Shown here piece after piece: positions 45,551-54,448 of a DNA stretch of 64,000 nucleotides. A model generated the notes under the pieces. That model was given only the letters and a program-made list of their open reading frames with translations. It was not told where the DNA came from and searched no databases. Location: contig WJIN01000143.1 of the NCBI GenBank assembly GCA_014730295.1, positions 1-64,000 of the forward strand, written 5' to 3'. Numbering within the stretch: position 1 is the first letter of the stretch; each line of letters opens with the position of its first letter. Both the position numbers and the translations under genes were made by a program. Source of the stretch: Promethearchaeota archaeon. Lineage in GTDB: Archaea > Asgardarchaeota > Lokiarchaeia > Sigynarchaeales > SOKP01.

Positions 45551-47107
45551 ATGAAAATGGAACAAAACGTAATACTAGTATTAGATATAGGAACGACCAA
45601 TATCAAAGCCCTTTTATTTGATAAGCAAGGAGAAATAGTCGGAGAGGCAAGACGTCGACCCGAATATATTATGAATGAGAAAGGGCAAGTTGAGCAAGAT
45701 CCAAATCAAATTTGGCAATATAGTAAGGAAGCCATTGAAGAAGTTATTGAAAAAAAGAACTTAAGTGCATCTGAAATTCAATGCATGGGTATCACCACGC
45801 AGAGAGCTTCTTTTTGTATGTGGGATAAACGTGATGGAAGATTATATTCAAATATCATCACATGGCAAGATAAACGCGCTGCAGAATATGCTGATAAAAT
45901 GACAAACAGTTTCTTTTTCAAATTTCTACGCGGATTTGCCAAGGTTGCGCATGCACTGACGAAAAGTACAAAAATGCTTACAGCATCGATGCTCCAATTT
46001 AACTCGGACTATGCCTCTATTCGTACATCTTATTTTCTTAAACATAATCCAAAAGTAAATGAACTCATCCAAGATCCAAAGACATCTATCGCTTGGGGTA
46101 CAATAGATACGTGGGTTTTATGGAATTTGACAGAAGGGAGAGTACACGCAACTGACTATTCGAATTGCTCTTCTACTGGAATGTTGGATCCCTTTACTCT
46201 AGATTGGAATTCTATTGTTGTAGATAAATTAGAAATTCCCATACACATTCTTCCTGATATAAAGGATACAAATGGAGATTTTGGAGTTACTAAACTTTTC
46301 GGGAACGGAGAAATTCCTATTCGTAGTGTTATTGCAGATCAACAAGCCTCTCTATTTGGACAATGTTGTTTTGATTATGGTGATATGAAAGTAACGAATG
46401 GAACAGGTTCCTTTGTAGATTTAAACACGGGAGATGAGCCATTCGCGTCTAAAAGAAAATTGTATCCTTTAGTGGCATGGAGGCTTGATGGGGAGATTAG
46501 ATACATTTTAGAGGGCTTATCTCATAATACAGGGAATATTATCGATTGGATACAAGAGGAGCTTGAGCTTTATAGCGATCCTGCTAAAACTGAGGAGATG
46601 GCTAAGAGTGTGGAATCAACTGGCGGAGTTTTCTTTTTACCAACATTTTCTAGTGGAATCTCCTTTCCATACTGGGATCCAACCGCGCGGGGAAACATTT
46701 TTGGCATTAGTATGCAAACGAAAAAAGAACATATCGTGCGAGCCGTTCTCAACGGGATATGCTTTCGAATAAAAGATTTTGTTGAAGGGATTATTGCTGA
46801 TACGGGAATCCATGTGGATAAAATAAAAGCGGATGGCGGAGTATCTCAAAACACCTATATACTTCAGTTTCTCGCAGATATTCTGGGAATGGAAGTCGAA
46901 CATTCAAAAAATCCAGAAACTACTGCCTTAGGTGCTGCATTTATCGCAGGATTAAAAACCGGATTCTGGGACTCTAGAGATCAATTAAAAGAAATCAGAA
47001 AAGTCGATAAAATATATAAACCGAAAATGAGTGAGGAGCGCCGAAATAAATTATATAACGCTTGGAAAGATATTATCAGAAGATCTCTCAATTATAATAA
47101 TTTCTAA
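45551..47107 (+). CDS. FGGY-family carbohydrate kinase (glycerol kinase-like)
   Basis: An ASKHA-fold sugar/polyol kinase. Phosphate-1 motif LVLDIGTTNIKALLFD; MGITTQRASFCMWD; ITWQDKR; DQQASLFGQCCFD; TNGTGSFVDLNTG; and the adenosine motif GGVSQNTYILQFLADILG. The layout follows GlpK most closely, but QRASFC replaces the QRET of glycerol kinases, so another polyol is possible. ATG 45551 is chosen over TTG 45509, giving 518 residues and the usual N-terminus. It is divergent from the sulfatase gene, close to the FAD/Fe-S pair, which might oxidise a related phosphate. Confidence 0.85.
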   Translation: MKMEQNVILVLDIGTTNIKALLFDKQGEIVGEARRRPEYIMNEKGQVEQDPNQIWQYSKEAIEEVIEKKNLSASEIQCMGITTQRASFCMWDKRDGRLYSNIITWQDKRAAEYADKMTNSFFFKFLRGFAKVAHALTKSTKMLTASMLQFNSDYASIRTSYFLKHNPKVNELIQDPKTSIAWGTIDTWVLWNLTEGRVHATDYSNCSSTGMLDPFTLDWNSIVVDKLEIPIHILPDIKDTNGDFGVTKLFGNGEIPIRSVIADQQASLFGQCCFDYGDMKVTNGTGSFVDLNTGDEPFASKRKLYPLVAWRLDGEIRYILEGLSHNTGNIIDWIQEELELYSDPAKTEEMAKSVESTGGVFFLPTFSSGISFPYWDPTARGNIFGISMQTKKEHIVRAVLNGICFRIKDFVEGIIADTGIHVDKIKADGGVSQNTYILQFLADILGMEVEHSKNPETTALGAAFIAGLKTGFWDSRDQLKEIRKVDKIYKPKMSEERRNKLYNAWKDIIRRSLNYNNF

Positions 47108-47219
47108 TCAATCTTATTTCTTTTTCATTTTTATTATTTCGATTAAATAAGCTAATATTTTCCGAATTTTTTGATATACGATTTCTAATTCTAAAGAATT
47201 TCCTAATATTAAGTATAAA

Positions 47220-47230
47220 GATATAAATAT
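47220..47230 (+). promoter_or_regulatory. Candidate TATA box of the trp leader
   Basis: GATATAAATAT is the best TATA match in the gap. It would set the transcription start near 47250, about 25-30 bases before the leader ATG at 47280. A second TATA-like run at about 47471-47480 would instead start transcription after the leader. Confidence 0.4.
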
Positions 47231-47279
47231 GAAGAATTCTTAAAACCTCTATCAACTTCAAAATCAATTTTGATATATT

Positions 47280-47354
47280 ATGAAAATTAATCATTTAATA
47301 GCTGTTTCTTTTAAGGGCAAAATTTGGTTTTGGGCTTGGCGTTGGCATGCATAA
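47280..47354 (+). CDS. Putative trp leader peptide
   Basis: ATG at 47280 opens 24 sense codons ending in TAA at 47352-47354. After an ordinary basic N-terminal part (MKINHLIAVSFKGKI), the peptide reads W-F-W-A-W-R-W-H-A, with four Trp codons in seven positions. The operon directly downstream has only one Trp codon in about 2200, so this density is exceptional. The size, Trp cluster and position match bacterial trp leader peptides, whose translation stalls when charged tRNA-Trp is scarce. There is no clear Shine-Dalgarno site. It is an inferred regulatory ORF; expression is not shown by sequence. Confidence 0.65.
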   Translation: MKINHLIAVSFKGKIWFWAWRWHA

Positions 47355-47370
47355 AATTTGCATCGGCCAA
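47336..47370 (+). promoter_or_regulatory. trp leader hairpin 1:2 (covers Trp codons)
   Basis: TTGGC (47336-47340) pairs with GCCAA (47366-47370), and ATGC (47347-47350) pairs with GCAT (47360-47363) around a nine-base loop. An alternative outer pairing uses TTGG at 47342-47345 with CCAA at 47367-47370. The 5' arm contains the last two Trp codons and the 3' arm follows the leader stop. A ribosome stalled at the Trp codons would block this stem and free the 3' arm. Confidence 0.5.
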
Positions 47371-47428
47371 TTGAAATTTCTTTAATCTTTTCTCGTTTAT
47401 CAATTTTCTTGCTGTAATAAAAGAAGAG

Positions 47429-47487
47429 ATATTAAAATGCAGTAGAAGAGAGCATCGGGGGAAGATACTTAATATTATATTTTTTTT
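47429..47487 (+). terminator. Putative trp attenuator terminator (3:4) with T8 run
   Basis: ATATTAA (47429-47435) pairs with TTAATAT (47469-47475), with an inner ATGC (47437-47440)/GCAT (47452-47455) pairing. Eight T residues follow at 47480-47487, 26 bases before the first gene. TTGCAT at 47358-47363 can pair with ATGCAG at 47437-47442, giving a 2:3 antiterminator that excludes the inner 3:4 pairs. The stem is AT-rich with a large internal loop, so stability is uncertain; T-runs alone terminate archaeal RNA polymerase. Confidence 0.45.
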
Positions 47488-47513
47488 AAGAAAATCAAAA
47501 TTTTAAATTTAAA

Positions 47514-47792
47514 ATGAGAAATGTGATAAAAAATTTGAAAAAATTAGAAGATGTTAATGAAGACACAAATTTGAATAGTTTTAACCAGGCAAAATTCAAA
47601 AAAGATTCAGAAAATGTTCAAATAATCTACAAAAAAATTATAACCCTCATAAATAATACTTATAGTTATATGCTAGGTCCCGAAAAGAATAGAACCGCTA
47701 CCTTCATTTCGCAAAATTATGAAAACATTTATGAGATCCTGAAAATGTGTAAAAAAAATCACAATTCTACAGATTTGGGAGGACAATTATGA
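47514..47792 (+). CDS. Small protein encoded first in the trp operon
   Basis: A 92-residue, Lys/Asn-rich, mostly helical protein I do not recognise. It shows no membrane segment, metal motif or similarity to Trp enzymes, and no Trp residue. Its stop overlaps the trpD start by four bases (ATGA), and the trpD Shine-Dalgarno site GGGAGG lies in its last codons, so the two are translationally coupled. It could be an operon-specific regulator, a subunit, or merely a coupling cistron. Confidence 0.6.
   Translation: MRNVIKNLKKLEDVNEDTNLNSFNQAKFKKDSENVQIIYKKIITLINNTYSYMLGPEKNRTATFISQNYENIYEILKMCKKNHNSTDLGGQL
47777..47782 (+). promoter_or_regulatory. Shine-Dalgarno site of trpD
   Basis: GGGAGG ends six bases before the ATG at 47789, inside the end of the small upstream gene. 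Confidence 0.55.
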
Positions 47793-48844
47793 TGGAACAA
47801 ATTGTTTATGCGATAAAAAAAGTAAGTAAAAGATATAATCTCACGATTGAAGAATCAATGAATATCATGAAAGATATCATGAATGGAAAAGTAAAATCCT
47901 CTCAATTAGGTGCATTTTTAGTAGCAATGGCTATGAAAGGTGAGACTGTTGATGAGTTGATTGGTTTTGCCAGAATTATGCGAAAGTACGCCAAAAATAT
48001 AAATCCTTCTGTAAAAAATGTTTTAGTAGATACATGTGGGACAGGGGGAGATAAGATAAAAACTTTTAATATTAGTACTATCACGGCATTTGTTATAGCA
48101 GGAGCAGGGATTTATGTGGCAAAACACGGAAATAGAGCGGTAACAAGTAAATGTGGGAGTGCAGATTTATTAGAAGGTTTAGGAGTAAACATAAATCTTA
48201 GTCCTGAAAGAGTAAAGGAATGTATTGAAAACGTTGGAATTGGATTTATGTTCGCGCCCTTATTTCATCCTGCTATGAAACATGCTATGCCAATAAGACA
48301 AGAACTCAAAATAAGAACCGTTTTTAATATTCTCGGTCCCCTTACTAATCCCGCGGGAGCAAAGTGTCATGTTCTGGGAGTGTTCGATAAATCCTTGCTA
48401 TCCTTGATGGCTAAAGCATTAGGTGAGGGGTTAGGAGGTAAGCACGTATTTACGGTTCATAATTCTTCTGGAATTGATGAGTTGGCACCTGTGGGTATAA
48501 ACTATCTTTCGGAATATCATGACAATTCTTTAGAAAATTATGCAATAACGAACGAAGATTTTGGGATCCCCTCATGTGTTATAGAAGACTTACACGTACC
48601 TTCAAGAGAAGATCATTTTAAAATCGCTGTAAATATATTAAAAAACAGATTAGTTGGGGCAAAACACAATACGATTCTAATGAATAGTGCTTTGGCATTG
48701 AAATCTTCAGGATTGGTAAATGATTTTGTTGAAGGTATTGAAATAGCTTCTCAATCTATTGAAACTGGACGGGCGTATGAGAAATTAGAGCAGCTTATTG
48801 AATTCTCTGAGGGAAATATTGCCAGATTAAAACAATATAACTAA
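47789..48844 (+). CDS. trpD: Anthranilate phosphoribosyltransferase
   Basis: TrpD joins anthranilate to PRPP, the second step of Trp synthesis. The PRPP-binding motif DTCGTGGDKIKTFNIST (about residues 85-101) and KHGNRAVTSKCGSADLLEGLG are both intact, as is FNILGPLTNPA. Length of 351 residues is usual. It contains no Trp. It is the first recognisable enzyme of the operon and is followed after eight bases by trpC. Confidence 0.95.
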   Translation: MMEQIVYAIKKVSKRYNLTIEESMNIMKDIMNGKVKSSQLGAFLVAMAMKGETVDELIGFARIMRKYAKNINPSVKNVLVDTCGTGGDKIKTFNISTITAFVIAGAGIYVAKHGNRAVTSKCGSADLLEGLGVNINLSPERVKECIENVGIGFMFAPLFHPAMKHAMPIRQELKIRTVFNILGPLTNPAGAKCHVLGVFDKSLLSLMAKALGEGLGGKHVFTVHNSSGIDELAPVGINYLSEYHDNSLENYAITNEDFGIPSCVIEDLHVPSREDHFKIAVNILKNRLVGAKHNTILMNSALALKSSGLVNDFVEGIEIASQSIETGRAYEKLEQLIEFSEGNIARLKQYN

Positions 48845-48858
48845 CTTAGGAGATGAAT

Positions 48859-49653
48859 ATGAGCCAAATTATTCAAAAATTAATAGAAAATAGAATAAAA
48901 TCACTCAGAGAACAAAAAGAGAATTTAGATAAAATTTCTCACTTAAACGTTTTCCCAAATAGAAAAAAGTTGAGTGAGAATATTGAAAATAAGAATAAGG
49001 TTTCTATAATAGCGGAAATTAAGCCCGCTTCTCCAACCTTGGGACTTATTAGGAAAACTTTCAATATTTCAAATATTGCTAAGAAAATGGAAAAAGGAGG
49101 TGCTATCGGTTTAAGTATAATTACAGAACCAACCTATTTTAATGGTTCATTTGAAAATCTGATAGAAGCTATGAATACGAGCATCTTACCTTGTCTGATG
49201 AAAGATTTTATCATTGATGAGATTCAAATGGAGATTGCGAAGTATGTAGGTGTTAAAAATATTCTATTGATTAATTATCTCATTAATATTGAAAAAATGT
49301 TTGAATTATCTTTAAAATACGGTTTAGAACCTTTGGTTGAAATTCATAAAAAAGAAGAATTGAGCGATATAGAACATTTATTTGAGGTTGGATTCAAACC
49401 AAAATTGATTGGGGTAAATAACAGAAATCTTAAGACACTAAATACAGATCTAACGACTTCTACGCAATTGATTCCAGAAGTTAGGAATAAATTTGGCGAA
49501 AAAGTGAAAATCATTAGCGAAAGTGGTATAAATACTTATAAAGATATTCAGTTTTTGCAAGGAACCGATGTGGATGCGTTTTTGATTGGGTCATCTATAA
49601 TGAAATCTGAGGATATAGTCAAGAAAATCAGAGATTTGAGAGGGAAAAAATAA
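48859..49653 (+). CDS. trpC: Indole-3-glycerol phosphate synthase
   Basis: TrpC closes the indole ring in the fourth step of the pathway. The (beta/alpha)8 barrel motifs are IIAEIKPASPT with the catalytic Lys, LSIITEPTYFNGS, CLMKDFIIDEIQ, LVEIHKKEEL, IGVNNRNLKTL and SESGI. Two ATGs compete: 48853 touches the AGGAG ribosome site, while 48859 lies six bases after it and is chosen. There is no Trp residue. The stop overlaps the trpF start by one base. Confidence 0.95.
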   Translation: MSQIIQKLIENRIKSLREQKENLDKISHLNVFPNRKKLSENIENKNKVSIIAEIKPASPTLGLIRKTFNISNIAKKMEKGGAIGLSIITEPTYFNGSFENLIEAMNTSILPCLMKDFIIDEIQMEIAKYVGVKNILLINYLINIEKMFELSLKYGLEPLVEIHKKEELSDIEHLFEVGFKPKLIGVNNRNLKTLNTDLTTSTQLIPEVRNKFGEKVKIISESGINTYKDIQFLQGTDVDAFLIGSSIMKSEDIVKKIRDLRGKK

Positions 49654-50306
49654 TGGAGTATATTAAAATCTGTGGGATTCAAAAAGTGGAAGATTTAGAA
49701 ATATGCATAAAATATGGAGCAACTGCAATAGGTTTTGTTTATAATGTATCTAATTCTCCACGGAATCTCTCTAAGAAGAGAGTTAAAGAATTAATAAAGG
49801 AGACTAATAAAAGAATAAATACTGTATGTGTGATTAAGGTTAAAAGTCTCAAAGAAATTACTGAAACATATCGAGAAATCGATACAGATTTCATACAGGT
49901 CCATTCAAATTTGGACTTTTCTGAATTAATCCTCCTTCCAAAAGAATTGAAAAGGAAACTAATAATTTCTAAAAAATTAAATCCTTCTCTAAATAAAAAT
50001 TTACAACACTATACAAATGAGTTTTTTGCATTTCTTATTGATTCTAGTGAGGGATCTGGAAAAGAACTTAATATATCCAGAGTCAGGTCTTTTCTAATAG
50101 GTTTGGAAGGTACGAGAATTATTCTCGCTGGAGGAATATGCAAAAAAAATATCAGAAGAATTATATCAAAATTAAATCCCTATGGAATAGATCTCAGTAG
50201 CTCATTGGAAATAAAAAAGGGGATTAAAAGTAAAAAGAAAATTGAAACATTTTTAAAATACATAAAAAAAATTAATAAAAATAAAATTGTGAAATATGAA
50301 ATATAA
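49653..50306 (+). CDS. trpF: Phosphoribosylanthranilate isomerase
   Basis: TrpF performs the Amadori rearrangement of phosphoribosylanthranilate. Catalytic Cys is in [13 protein letters not shown] (residue 7-8 region), [18 protein letters not shown] binds phosphate, and [14 protein letters not shown] and [20 protein letters not shown] end the barrel. In the last motif the usual VDVSSGVE is changed to IDLSSSLE. At 217 residues it is full length, without Trp. It overlaps trpB by 11 bases. Confidence 0.9.
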
Positions 50307-51495
50307 AGATACTTATCCCGATGAAAGGGGCAGATTCGGAGACTTTGGGGGCATATTTGCTCCAGAAATTCTAATGCCAGCTTTGAAAGAGCTTGAAAAT
50401 GCATATAGGAAATATGTATATGAGGAAGAATTTCAAAACGAATTGAAAGGAATATTAGAAACATATAGTGGGCGACCAACTCCACTCTATTTTGCTAAAA
50501 AATTAAGCGATAATTTAGGTTGTAAAGTCTATCTTAAACGAGAAGATCTAAATCATGGAGGTGCCCATAAAATTAATAATGTTATTGGACAAACTTTACT
50601 TGCTAAAAAAATGGGGAAAAATAAACTCATAGCGGAAACTGGAGCAGGGCAGCATGGGTTTGCAACAGCTATTGCAGGAGCATATTTCGATATGCCAACA
50701 AAAATCTTTATGGGTGAGATTGATATAAAACGTCAATCATATAATGTTTATCGTATGCAATTACTTGGTGCAGAAGTAATTCCTGTAAAAACAGGTTCAA
50801 AAACATTAAAAGATGCTATAAATGATGGATTGAGATATTGGATTGCAAATATAGAAGATACTCATTATGTGATGGGAAGCGTAGTAGGACCTCATCCCTA
50901 CCCTGTTTTAGTACGGGAATTTCAGAGGATAATAGGAAAAGAAATTAAAGAACAAATCAACATTGCTGAAGGAAAATTACCAACCGCAATTATTGCTTGT
51001 GTGGGTGGTGGAAGTAATGCGATAGGGTCGTTTTATGAATTTATTGATGATGATGTTGATTTATACGGCGTAGAGGCGGCTGGGAAAGGAAAAGAAACAG
51101 GAAAACATTCAATTGCTTTGGGGTTGGGACGTAAAGGAGTATTACATGGTGCACTTCAATATCTTCTACAGGATGAATATGGAAATATATTAGAAACTCA
51201 TTCTATTAGTGCTGGATTAGATTATCCTGGAGTTGGTCCTGAACATTGCCATCTAAAAGAAAAGCATCGACTTATGATTGGGGAAGCAACAGATCTGGAA
51301 GCACTAGCAGCTTTTAAAAAATTATCATTATTAGAAGGAATAATCCCAGCTCTTGAATCATCTCATGCTTTGGCTTACCTAGAAAAAATTAAAGAGAAAT
51401 TTAGCAACGAAGATATTGTAATTGTAAATTTATCTGGAAGTGGAAGTAAAGATTTAGGAATTGTAAAAAAACACTTGGAGTTTAAGATAAAATGA
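50296..51495 (+). CDS. trpB: Tryptophan synthase beta chain
   Basis: TrpB condenses indole with serine using PLP. The PLP Lys is residue 92 in [10 protein letters not shown], and the phosphate loop is [21 protein letters not shown] at the N-terminus identifies the TrpB1 type that works with TrpA. Trp182 (codon 50839-50841) in [13 protein letters not shown] is the only Trp in all eight genes of the operon. Length of 399 residues is standard. Confidence 0.95.
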
Positions 51496-52334
51496 AGCAG
51501 AAAAACAGAATACACAATCTTTTTAAAGATAATAAAGAAAAGGATAAAAAATATTTTATGCCATTTTTAGTTGCTGGAGATCCTAGTACTAGTAAATTTA
51601 TTGAACTTATACTCGCACTAGAACCTTATGCTGATATTCTGGAAATAGGAATTCCTTTTTCAGATCCAATAGCAGACGGGGAAACTGTACAAGAAGCAAA
51701 TCTTAGAGCTTTCAAAGCAGGAATTAATACAGACAAAGCAATTGCAGCAATTAAACGGATCAGGAAAAATACAAATAAACCTATTGTTGTACTAACTTAT
51801 TATAACATACTTATCCAGGGATCAAATACAATTGAACACGCACTTGATATTACTTTTGGTAAGATGAAAGCAGTGGGTATTGATGGTATTGTAATAGCTG
51901 ATCTTCCTGTTGAAGAGGCTGATTTAGCCCTTAAGATGGCGAAAAAGTATGATATTTCAATTATTTTTATAATTGCCCCCTCTACAACTGAAGAAAGGCT
52001 TAATAAAATCTTGACCGTCGCGGATGGTTTTCTTTATTTAATATCAGTTATGGGGATAACCGGAGCAAGGAAAAGTATAGAGGAAATTACAAAAAATACT
52101 ATTAAAAAAGTTAAGAGAAAAATAAGAGATAACTTTCCAATTTTTTTAGGATTTGGAATCTCAACCCCTAATCATTCTCAAACTATAATTAAACTCGGGG
52201 CAGATGGCGTTATAATTGGTTCTGCTATAATAGAAATAATAAAGAAAAATCTTGATAATTTTTATCTAATGAAAAAACAACTTATAAATTTCGTGTCCTC
52301 AATTAAAGATTCAATAACCTCGAAAAGTGAGTGA
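51492..52334 (+). CDS. trpA: Tryptophan synthase alpha chain
   Basis: TrpA cleaves indole-3-glycerol phosphate and channels indole to TrpB. The catalytic Glu is in [16 protein letters not shown] (about residues 46-61), the second acid in [15 protein letters not shown], and the phosphate site in GFGIST and GVIIGSAI. The start overlaps the trpB stop (ATGA). The protein has 280 residues and no Trp. Confidence 0.95.
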
Positions 52335-52337
52335 TAA

Positions 52338-53834
52338 ATGGATTTTGATATTCATATTGAAAAAGTTGGAATTTTAAATGATATATTTGGTTTTTATAAA
52401 TATCTGATCAGTGAGAAAGGTTTGGAGAATCATGCGTTGTTGGAATCTTCTGCTAGAAATACTAATGAAACTCTCTTTAGCTTCATTGCATTAGAACCAG
52501 ATTTCATGCTTGAGATTAGAGATGATAACTTCAAAATTTATAATATAACCAGCGCAAGAGGAGAAGTAATTAAGGAATACTTAGAATCTAAAGATCCTAC
52601 AGATAAAAGTTTACAAAATCCCTTACCCTTCAAAGATAATGTCGAATATAAAATGAATGCTATAGATACGCTTAGTCATCTTACTCCTTATTCAGAGGTT
52701 CCATTTTCTGAAATATTTCCCAGAAATATATTCTATGGTGGTATGTTAGGATATATTGGATATGATGTGGTCGCACCTCATGTGGGGTATAAGCCAAATA
52801 GCGAATTCCCCGATATTCTTATGGGTCTTTTTACTAAAGTATTGGTTTATTCACATAATTCTAATACATTATTTATGATTGATAATAGTATTAGTGATTA
52901 TACTAAAAATAAAGATATTAGTTATCAGCTAACTCTATTCAACCGAAAAGAAAAAGGATCAAATAAAGAGATTACTTCAACAGACTTTGATGAAATTGAT
53001 GAATCTGATTTTAGATCTAATACGTCTCAATCAGCACACGCTCGAATGGTAGAGATTACAAAGAACCATATATTTTCGGGGGATATCATTCAAGCTGTAA
53101 TCTCCAGGAGATTATATACTAAAAGTGAAGTAGATCCAATGTCCATTTATGAGGTATTAAGGTGCCAAAATCCTTCTCAGTATATGTATAATATAAACTT
53201 TGATGATGTGAAAATTATTGGAAGCAGCCCAGAAGCGCTTATATCCAAAAATAAAGATATTTTGTCTACAGTCCCGATTGCCGGTACTATAAGAAGGGGG
53301 GAAACAAAAGAGGAGGATATTAAATTAGAAAAAGATTTATTAAATGATCCAAAAGAAAGGGCTGAACATATTATGTTGGTAGATTTAGCAAGAAATGATT
53401 TAGCTAAAGTTTCTTTCCCCGGTTCAGTTAACACATATGAATTGATGTCTATTCAAAAATATCAAAAAGTTCAGCATATTGTAAGTAAAATTCGAAGTAA
53501 AACCCCTTTAGATGGATATCAGGTATTAAAAAGTGTTTTTCCCGCTGGCACTCTTTCTGGGGCGCCAAAAAAACGTGCGATGGAAATTATCCAAGAACTA
53601 GAAACAGAATCGAGAGGTCCTTATGGAGGAGGTGTGGGATATTTTTCATTTAATGGAGATATGACATTTGCTATTGCTATTAGAACGCTATTTGGTAATA
53701 ATAATACTTATTTTGCTCAAGCAGGAGGTGGAATAGTTGCAGACAGCCAATCAGAATCCGAATTCAATGAAACATATAATAAGCTTTATAGTATTTTGAA
53801 ATCTATTAAAATTGCGGAGGCATTTTCCCAATGA
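52338..53834 (+). CDS. trpE: Anthranilate synthase component I
   Basis: TrpE makes anthranilate from chorismate with ammonia supplied by TrpG. Chorismate-family motifs are IPIAGTIRRG, DPKERAEHIMLVDLARNDL, FPAGTLSGAPKKRAMEIIQELE and GPYGGGVGYFSFNGDM. A feedback-type N-terminal LLESSARN fits the LLES motif where Trp binds. No Trp residue occurs in 498 residues. The gene is placed near the end of the operon, whereas bacterial operons usually start with trpE. Confidence 0.95.
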   Translation: MDFDIHIEKVGILNDIFGFYKYLISEKGLENHALLESSARNTNETLFSFIALEPDFMLEIRDDNFKIYNITSARGEVIKEYLESKDPTDKSLQNPLPFKDNVEYKMNAIDTLSHLTPYSEVPFSEIFPRNIFYGGMLGYIGYDVVAPHVGYKPNSEFPDILMGLFTKVLVYSHNSNTLFMIDNSISDYTKNKDISYQLTLFNRKEKGSNKEITSTDFDEIDESDFRSNTSQSAHARMVEITKNHIFSGDIIQAVISRRLYTKSEVDPMSIYEVLRCQNPSQYMYNINFDDVKIIGSSPEALISKNKDILSTVPIAGTIRRGETKEEDIKLEKDLLNDPKERAEHIMLVDLARNDLAKVSFPGSVNTYELMSIQKYQKVQHIVSKIRSKTPLDGYQVLKSVFPAGTLSGAPKKRAMEIIQELETESRGPYGGGVGYFSFNGDMTFAIAIRTLFGNNNTYFAQAGGGIVADSQSESEFNETYNKLYSILKSIKIAEAFSQ

Positions 53835-54448
53835 ATATTCTATTTATTAATAATTATGATAGTTTTATCTACAACTTAGTTGATTATATCTCCCAATTGA
53901 AACCGAAAGCCACTATAATTATAGAAAATAATAATATTGATTTAGATAAAATCGAAAAGATGGATATTAGTGTCATATTAATATCACCAGGACCAGGTCA
54001 TCCAAAATATGATACTGGAAATATAATCCCCATAATTAAAGAAACTTATTCAAGGATCCCAATTTTAGGTATATGTCTAGGTCATCAAGCAATTGTAGAA
54101 GCTTTTGGAGAATTAGAAAATCCAGATAAAAAGATTGAATATGTTGGAAAAGCTAAAGTTGGTCCTAAACATGGAAAAATTTCTAAAATCTTCCATGACC
54201 AAGAAAGAATCTTAATAGGTTTACCGAATCCCTTATTGGGTGTCCGATATCATTCCCTTGCAGCTAAATCAGATATTTTGCCGAGAGATTTAATAATTAC
54301 CGCAACTGCTGATGATGGAACTATAATGGGGATACGACATAAAAATTATTTTGTTGAGGGTATCCAATTTCATCCAGAATCTATTATGATGAAACCTCAT
54401 GGTAAAATAATTTTATCCAATTTCTTAAATCTCTGCTTTAAAACATAA
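53831..54448 (+). CDS. trpG: Anthranilate synthase component II (glutamine amidotransferase)
   Basis: TrpG releases ammonia from glutamine for TrpE. The nucleophile Cys82 is in GICLGHQAIVEAFG, and the His/Glu pair is in GIQFHPESIM. PGPGHPKYDTGN is the oxyanion-loop region. The start overlaps the trpE stop (ATGA) and GGAGG precedes it. At 205 residues it is a stand-alone domain. It is the last gene of the trp operon and contains no Trp. Confidence 0.95.
   Translation: MNILFINNYDSFIYNLVDYISQLKPKATIIIENNNIDLDKIEKMDISVILISPGPGHPKYDTGNIIPIIKETYSRIPILGICLGHQAIVEAFGELENPDKKIEYVGKAKVGPKHGKISKIFHDQERILIGLPNPLLGVRYHSLAAKSDILPRDLIITATADDGTIMGIRHKNYFVEGIQFHPESIMMKPHGKIILSNFLNLCFKT

Follow-up and report, generated by a model that had tools for sequence, protein, structure and literature searches.

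Does an Asgard archaeon control its tryptophan synthesis genes through a ribosome translating a short leader peptide? Attenuation by leader peptides is known from textbooks as a bacterial mechanism dependent on close coupling of translation to transcription, and the Asgards are the archaeal group thought to be closest to eukaryotes. The window, a 64,000-nucleotide stretch of DNA, carries a short ORF dense in Trp codons directly upstream of a trp operon. Its TrpD is nearest to proteins named, where they are named, as Lokiarchaeota, Promethearchaeia or Promethearchaeota archaeon, and by this measure the window is Lokiarchaeota-like.

The leader ORF, its operon and its predicted promoter

The ORF runs from ATG to TAA on the plus strand (47280-47354) and comprises 24 codons, four of them Trp, encoding the peptide MKINHLIAVSFKGKIWFWAWRWHA. 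This is exactly the frame described by the original prediction, and two further statements made there were confirmed by recounting. The prediction gave one Trp codon in the next eight genes (about 2200 codons); orf92, trpD, trpC, trpF, trpB, trpA, trpE, and trpG, at 47514-54448, contain one Trp in a total of 2308 codons. It placed the ORF on the same strand about 160 bases ahead of the operon; the gap from the leader stop codon to orf92 is 159 nt. The Trp cluster ends two codons ahead of the stop. The preceding gene, encoding a carbohydrate kinase, ends at 47107. Each of the seven trp genes matches a fitting Pfam family, and orf92 has none. The features are as follows.

47222..47229, plus strand: predicted TATA box with the sequence TATAAATA, located 58 nt upstream of the leader start codon
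47280..47354, plus strand: Trp-rich leader ORF, 24 codons, MKINHLIAVSFKGKIWFWAWRWHA
47325..47345, plus strand: putative regulatory Trp codon cluster W-F-W-A-W-R-W, with TGG at 47325, 47331, 47337, and 47343
47341..47371, plus strand: hairpin H1, predicted by folding
47385..47466, plus strand: hairpin H2, a weak prediction from a single-sequence fold only
47480..47487, plus strand: run of eight T after H2, candidate termination point
47514..47792, plus strand: orf92, small protein without a Pfam family, first gene of the operon (ORF call)
47789..48844, plus strand: trpD (ORF and Pfam)
48853..49653, plus strand: trpC (ORF and Pfam)
49653..50306, plus strand: trpF (ORF and Pfam)
50296..51495, plus strand: trpB (Pfam PALP; named from operon context)
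51492..52334, plus strand: trpA (ORF and Pfam)
52338..53834, plus strand: trpE (ORF and Pfam)
53831..54448, plus strand: trpG (Pfam GATase; named from operon context)

At the Trp frequency of the window (1.0%), the probability of finding at least four Trp in 24 codons is ∼9e-5. Among 9755 ORFs of 8 to 60 codons surveyed across 404 kb, a set made up of 340 kb from loki stretches and the window itself with both strands included, three have at least four Trp within 10 codons, the window leader being one. When the 600 nt preceding trpD were shuffled 300 times with dinucleotide composition kept, the Trp clustering of this leader was never equalled.

The predicted TATA box is similarly placed across the leaders compared. 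In 18 of 21 leaders the best match to TATAAATA falls between -54 and -63 relative to the ATG, and 16 of the 18 matches are perfect; for L122 and L123 the distance was counted from an internal ATG. When a perfect match was sought anywhere in the 90 nt upstream, it was found in 18/21 leaders, against 290 of 4200 mononucleotide shuffles of the same regions. The original prediction would have been refuted if transcription began after 47354; at the sequence level, the perfect element stands upstream in those 18 leaders versus 1/21 in the 150 nt past the stop codon. Because the TATA box is well placed upstream of the ORF, the leader most likely lies within the transcript, which in the window is predicted to begin near 47250, ∼30 nt before the ATG.

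Conservation and recurrence of the Trp-rich ORF

A search of 227 genomes of the phylum gave a trpD match at E<=1e-60 in 40, and the region upstream of trpD was read in 24 of these: 14 that we call loki-type, with TrpD 62-69% identical to that of the window, and 10 from other Asgards. The 24 do not include L130, where trpD lies too close to the contig end; L131, L135, L136, L138-L140, L143, and L144, where trpE and trpG stand ahead of trpD; or G280, G570, G394, G263, G433, G346, and G142, of which G280, G570, and G433 were read only upstream of trpE.

The original prediction had proposed searching related genomes for conservation, and it was found there: all 14 loki-type loci have a short Trp-rich ORF upstream of trpD on the same strand, and such ORFs occur again before split trp units. 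In the loki-type loci the ORF lies 152-514 nt from trpD, or ∼165-205 nt from orf92 where that gene is seen, and carries two to six Trp codons near its end. Among the 15 leaders including that of the window, 11 have at least three Trp in 10 codons, a clustering matched in 0-2 of 300 dinucleotide-shuffled sequences; the remaining four have only two Trp codons, equalled by 8-35 of 300 shuffles. On the antisense strand of the 15 loci the Trp cluster never exceeds two.

The peptides are otherwise highly divergent (for example, MIDNKRLLGWQMPWRY, MATENNCFWSWQWPWRWQ, and MNTTYNNLVCKTTWFWAWRWHA). In eight close pairs, amino acid-changing codon differences outnumber silent ones by 49 to three, which argues that the leader peptide itself is unprotected and its Trp codons mostly protected. 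The leader is conserved as a kind of ORF rather than as a sequence, and the part that is kept is the Trp cluster ahead of the stop.

The first gene of the operon was observed elsewhere. The orf92 product is Trp-free and has a GPEK..TA-FI motif, and several loki-type operons have the gene in the interval separating the leader from trpD; tblastn gave matches in five of the 14 loki loci (L092, L119, L121, L124, and L125), and an ORF in L122 was judged similar by eye.

We considered whether the TGG repeats could be an RNA or DNA site for a TRAP-like or TrpY-like regulator, the open frame being incidental. In its favor, the triplets are mostly spaced by 6 nt, and the amino acids between and before the Trp residues are unconserved. 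Against this, an in-frame ATG is reached before any stop on reading back from the first clustered Trp codon in 21/21 leaders, compared with 3/42 in the other frames, and the last TGG lies one or two codons ahead of the stop in 20/21 (eight codons in the exception, L122). Other codons have replaced the inner TGGs of L117 and L129, giving W-F-C-I-C-C-W, and the frame is intact. The sequence TGTACA, the TrpY box (TRP box), is absent from 47000-47513 of the window and from up to 150 nt upstream of all 21 leaders (62 nt only for L126). A protein-binding site is therefore improbable, even given that the archaeal trp operons of known control use the DNA-binding proteins TrpY and Tar, according to PMC6737238.

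A second Trp-rich leader was found in 6 of 11 loki-type trpE loci, directly before trpE in five and before trpA-trpE in one. These second leaders occur only where the operon is split, and they end in T-W-x-W-x-W-R/H-W-H-A/V. The other five trpE loci are preceded by trpA in the same orientation, and outside trpA they have no second leader. Five of the trpE leaders were compared with shuffles, none of 300 being as high. In L146 a short ORF with three Trp near trpE is located inside trpA; short Trp-containing ORFs were also found inside other genes.

A search of 14 whole genomes with the pattern TGGNNNTGGCRYTGGCA returned 11 matches, and its reversed version none. Nine of the matches are among the leaders used in its design, one overlaps a long ORF in a different reading frame, and one is a new leader before trpB2, with the peptide MAFVKTTFWDFSWPWPWRWQEC. 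G504 has another trpB2 leader, making two of the seven complete trpB2 loci with a leader and five with none. The generic pattern TGGNNNTGGNNNTGG was set aside as too unspecific, with at least several hundred matches.

A likely His counterpart was observed in L207 and L208 (G506 and G504), where an ORF ending NSYLHHWLHHE or NSMVHHWLHH lies ∼85 nt before hisIE-hisG-hisD, a second his operon. Two hairpins follow this ORF, one with a change that by eye seems compensatory. The His leader was absent from the 12 other hisG loci (2/14 positive); looser His clusters upstream of hisG in L210, L216, and L220 were left out of this count.

Outside the loki-type loci, a Trp-rich ORF was found in nine of the ten other trpD-first Asgard loci, defined by having neither trpE nor trpG before trpD in the fetched flank; L137 has no leader upstream of trpD. 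Six of them (L132, L133, L134, L141, L142, and L187) have three or four clustered Trp codons, a level attained by 0-11 of 300 shuffles. The leaders of L145, L188, and L189 have only two, which does not stand out from shuffled sequence (76, 42, and 26 of 300 shuffles as high, respectively), and resemble one another in the form MAxxxRTxxWxW. At nine trpE loci of other Asgards (L167-L175) no tight Trp cluster was found except in L174, a trpE-first operon with a TTG-started ORF, LWVWGGVVWVLCGFCGSSL, that has three Trp codons and lies 238-298 nt before the trpE match; this ORF may have arisen by chance or be a leader unrelated to the others.

At 42 non-Asgard archaeal loci, a set in which at least three repeat one site under two ids and many flanks are short, two ORFs passed the filter. 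These, in L093 (three Trp) and L107 (four Trp, with no gene after it), both start with TTG and were judged unconvincing. The same filter passed nine ORFs at 67 bacterial loci; by eye, L013, L015, L029, and L059, from bacterial MAGs, have ordinary-looking trpL ORFs upstream of trp genes.

AT-rich genomes contain many short ORFs, from which a cluster of Trp codons could arise by chance. That explanation is refuted by the conservation in 14/14 loci, the shuffles, the survey of 9755 ORFs, the recurrence before split units, the pattern search, and the in-frame ATG counts, and we regard its probability as negligible.

Predicted leader RNA structure and the proposed output of control

With high confidence, we read the Trp-rich ORF as a leader peptide for ribosome-sensed control of Trp synthesis, whether the output is transcription or translation. 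The ribosome-sensed reading offered by the original prediction is thus supported at the sequence level by conservation and by the TATA box upstream of the ORF, and the leader probably works like a trp attenuator. Transcription would begin ∼30 nt ahead of the ORF, and ribosomes would translate the leader. Under a shortage of charged tRNA-Trp, the ribosome would stall on the clustered Trp codons and block the formation of H1, and the trp genes would remain on. With plentiful tryptophan, the ribosome would finish and depart, H1 would form, and expression would be cut, most likely by transcription ending between the leader and the first gene, which is the version we favor. This last step, termination versus control of the translation of the first gene, is the least certain part of the scheme.

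In the window the 5' arm of the predicted H1 is formed by the last Trp codon and the His-Ala codons, its loop holds the stop codon, and its 3' arm lies just past the ORF. When the folding energy was compared with shuffles of the downstream part, the window gave p=0.11 and 10/30 leaders gave p<=0.05; the combined p was ∼1.4e-6 over 21 representatives, which were chosen by us and are partly related. Covariation gave no support for H1. An initial test of H1 was dropped, as 29/30 leaders were positive against 21.6/30 expected from the control.

For H2 two sequence types were distinguished, and the sequence in the window is unlike the H2 of its relatives. Type A comprises eight trpD leaders and one trpB2 leader; its alignment has 14 doubly changed pair cells versus 7.8±2.4 in shuffles, of which 5/500 were as high. 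A model of type-A H2, run over 14 genomes with 150 first-pass candidates scored per genome, gave 12 matches, all before trpD operons or trpB2. Nine are training rows, one is new and strong (trpB2 of G504, E 3.8e-8), and two are weak and lack a Trp leader. The weak pair, in L222 and L228 (E 0.003-0.004), lies ∼40 nt before trpB2 with no Trp-rich leader; these matches may be remnants, or H2 may have been put to use independently there.

The T-runs do not decide how expression would be cut. Runs of at least six T occur in 15/21 leaders, which are related to one another, versus 48/100 ordinary upstream regions (p=0.058), so that they are not clearly above background; in several type-B leaders H2 is followed by a T-run. 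No 2:3 antiterminator was found in any of the 21 leaders, using single-sequence folds in which the ribosome was placed at the final Trp codon. The modelled stalled ribosome lowered downstream pairing by at most two pairs in any of the 21. In the stalled state, the segment after the stop codon gained downstream pairing in the window (from 0.8 to 6.7 pairs), L117, L129, and L092, and H2 was not displaced.

The main rival to the termination version is control of the first gene's translation, in which the position of the ribosome on the leader would set whether H2 blocks initiation. We count this as a variant of the leader-peptide reading and consider it a genuine if lesser possibility. For the type-A leaders and trpB2, the H2 matches stop 13-49 nt short of the first start codon in 10/12 cases by our own reading of the coordinates. 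The covariation in H2 and the lack of a clear enrichment of T-runs also fit this version, and in L123 and L124 the 3' strand of H2 can, by eye, pair instead with the segment that follows. The placement is less suitable elsewhere, however: in those type-B leaders for which the distance was taken manually, the end of the modelled H2 falls ∼45-80 nt upstream of the gene, so that the start is uncovered, and before trpD in G491 and G504 H2 is >100 nt away.

Origin of the leader and comparison with known systems

The original prediction had offered a second possibility, acquisition of the whole module from bacteria, and for trpD this found no support. In a FastTree tree of TrpD, the 27 Asgard rows (26 trpD-first plus L131, which is trpE-first) grouped outside all 67 bacterial rows with a support of 94, just below the 95 mark, and on this tree a bacterial acquisition of trpD is not supported. 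In the TrpE tree the 22 Asgard rows form one clade (100), with two Halanaerobiaceae rows as sister at a support of only 54, which would suit a takeover of operon and attenuator together. So would a 2010 paper, PMC2965389, in which leader peptides are reported solely from bacterial phyla. The TATA boxes in front of the leaders are archaeal, and the window has no match to any Rfam family at gathering score, the trp leader and T-box included. A wholesale takeover is therefore quite improbable. A scan of five relatives gave two Rfam matches in all, to PK-IAV and sR14, both far below gathering score and taken as chance.

On balance we lean toward a standing Asgard system: the ancestral Asgard trp operon would have been trpD-first and already equipped with a Trp leader, and such a leader would today precede every separate trp transcription unit (trpD, trpE, trpA-trpE, and, in two genomes, trpB2), while two loki-type genomes would control a his operon with a His version (H-H-W-L-H-H). 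Such a system would be the first attenuation by runs of amino acid codons in Archaea, probably with an archaeal-specific readout. If true, translation-transcription coupling can control genes in Asgard archaea, and the leader offers a sequence-defined test of that coupling. The original prediction knew of no established trp leader-peptide attenuation in Archaea. Consistent with that remark, the open-access titles and abstract openings searched (subscription papers and preprints being outside this scope) showed, among the matches listed, no case of leader-peptide attenuation of archaeal amino acid genes. Archaeal leader-peptide control is apparently undescribed so far, a claim of novelty that we make provisionally.

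The closest likeness is to the bacterial trpL attenuators, of which the trpL leader peptide of the E. coli trp operon is the familiar case. Like these, the Asgard leader is a short ORF with Trp codons clustered near its end, upstream of trp genes on the same strand; in the E. coli layout, the stop codon also lies in the loop of a hairpin with Trp codons on its 5' arm, as in the predicted H1. The Asgard leaders differ in their archaeal host, TATA promoter, and trpD-first gene order, in the absence of an antiterminator from the folds above and of a clear enrichment of T-runs, and in an H2 for which the window gives no Rfam match at gathering score. Other bacterial trp genes are controlled at the RNA level by the T-box, which has no match in the window, and by TRAP, whose site consists of NAG triplets, whereas the Asgard repeats are TGG in an open frame.

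Leader-peptide attenuators have also been described for trp in Corynebacterium and Streptomyces, and for the cys operons of Mycobacterium as leader peptides without clear terminators, in PMC1262725. As described there, the Mycobacterium cys leaders share with the Asgard leaders regulatory codons near the stop, conservation in relatives, and no evident terminator; the Asgard leaders differ in using Trp rather than Cys, in belonging to Archaea, and in having a conserved downstream hairpin. Within Archaea, control of trp was little known, TrpY excepted, before the description of Tar, according to PMC6737238. TrpY and Tar resemble the Asgard leader in controlling archaeal trp operons, and they do so, by that account, as DNA-binding proteins at the promoter, whereas the Asgard sensor would be the ribosome; if true, the control of archaeal trp genes does not lie solely with DNA-binding proteins.
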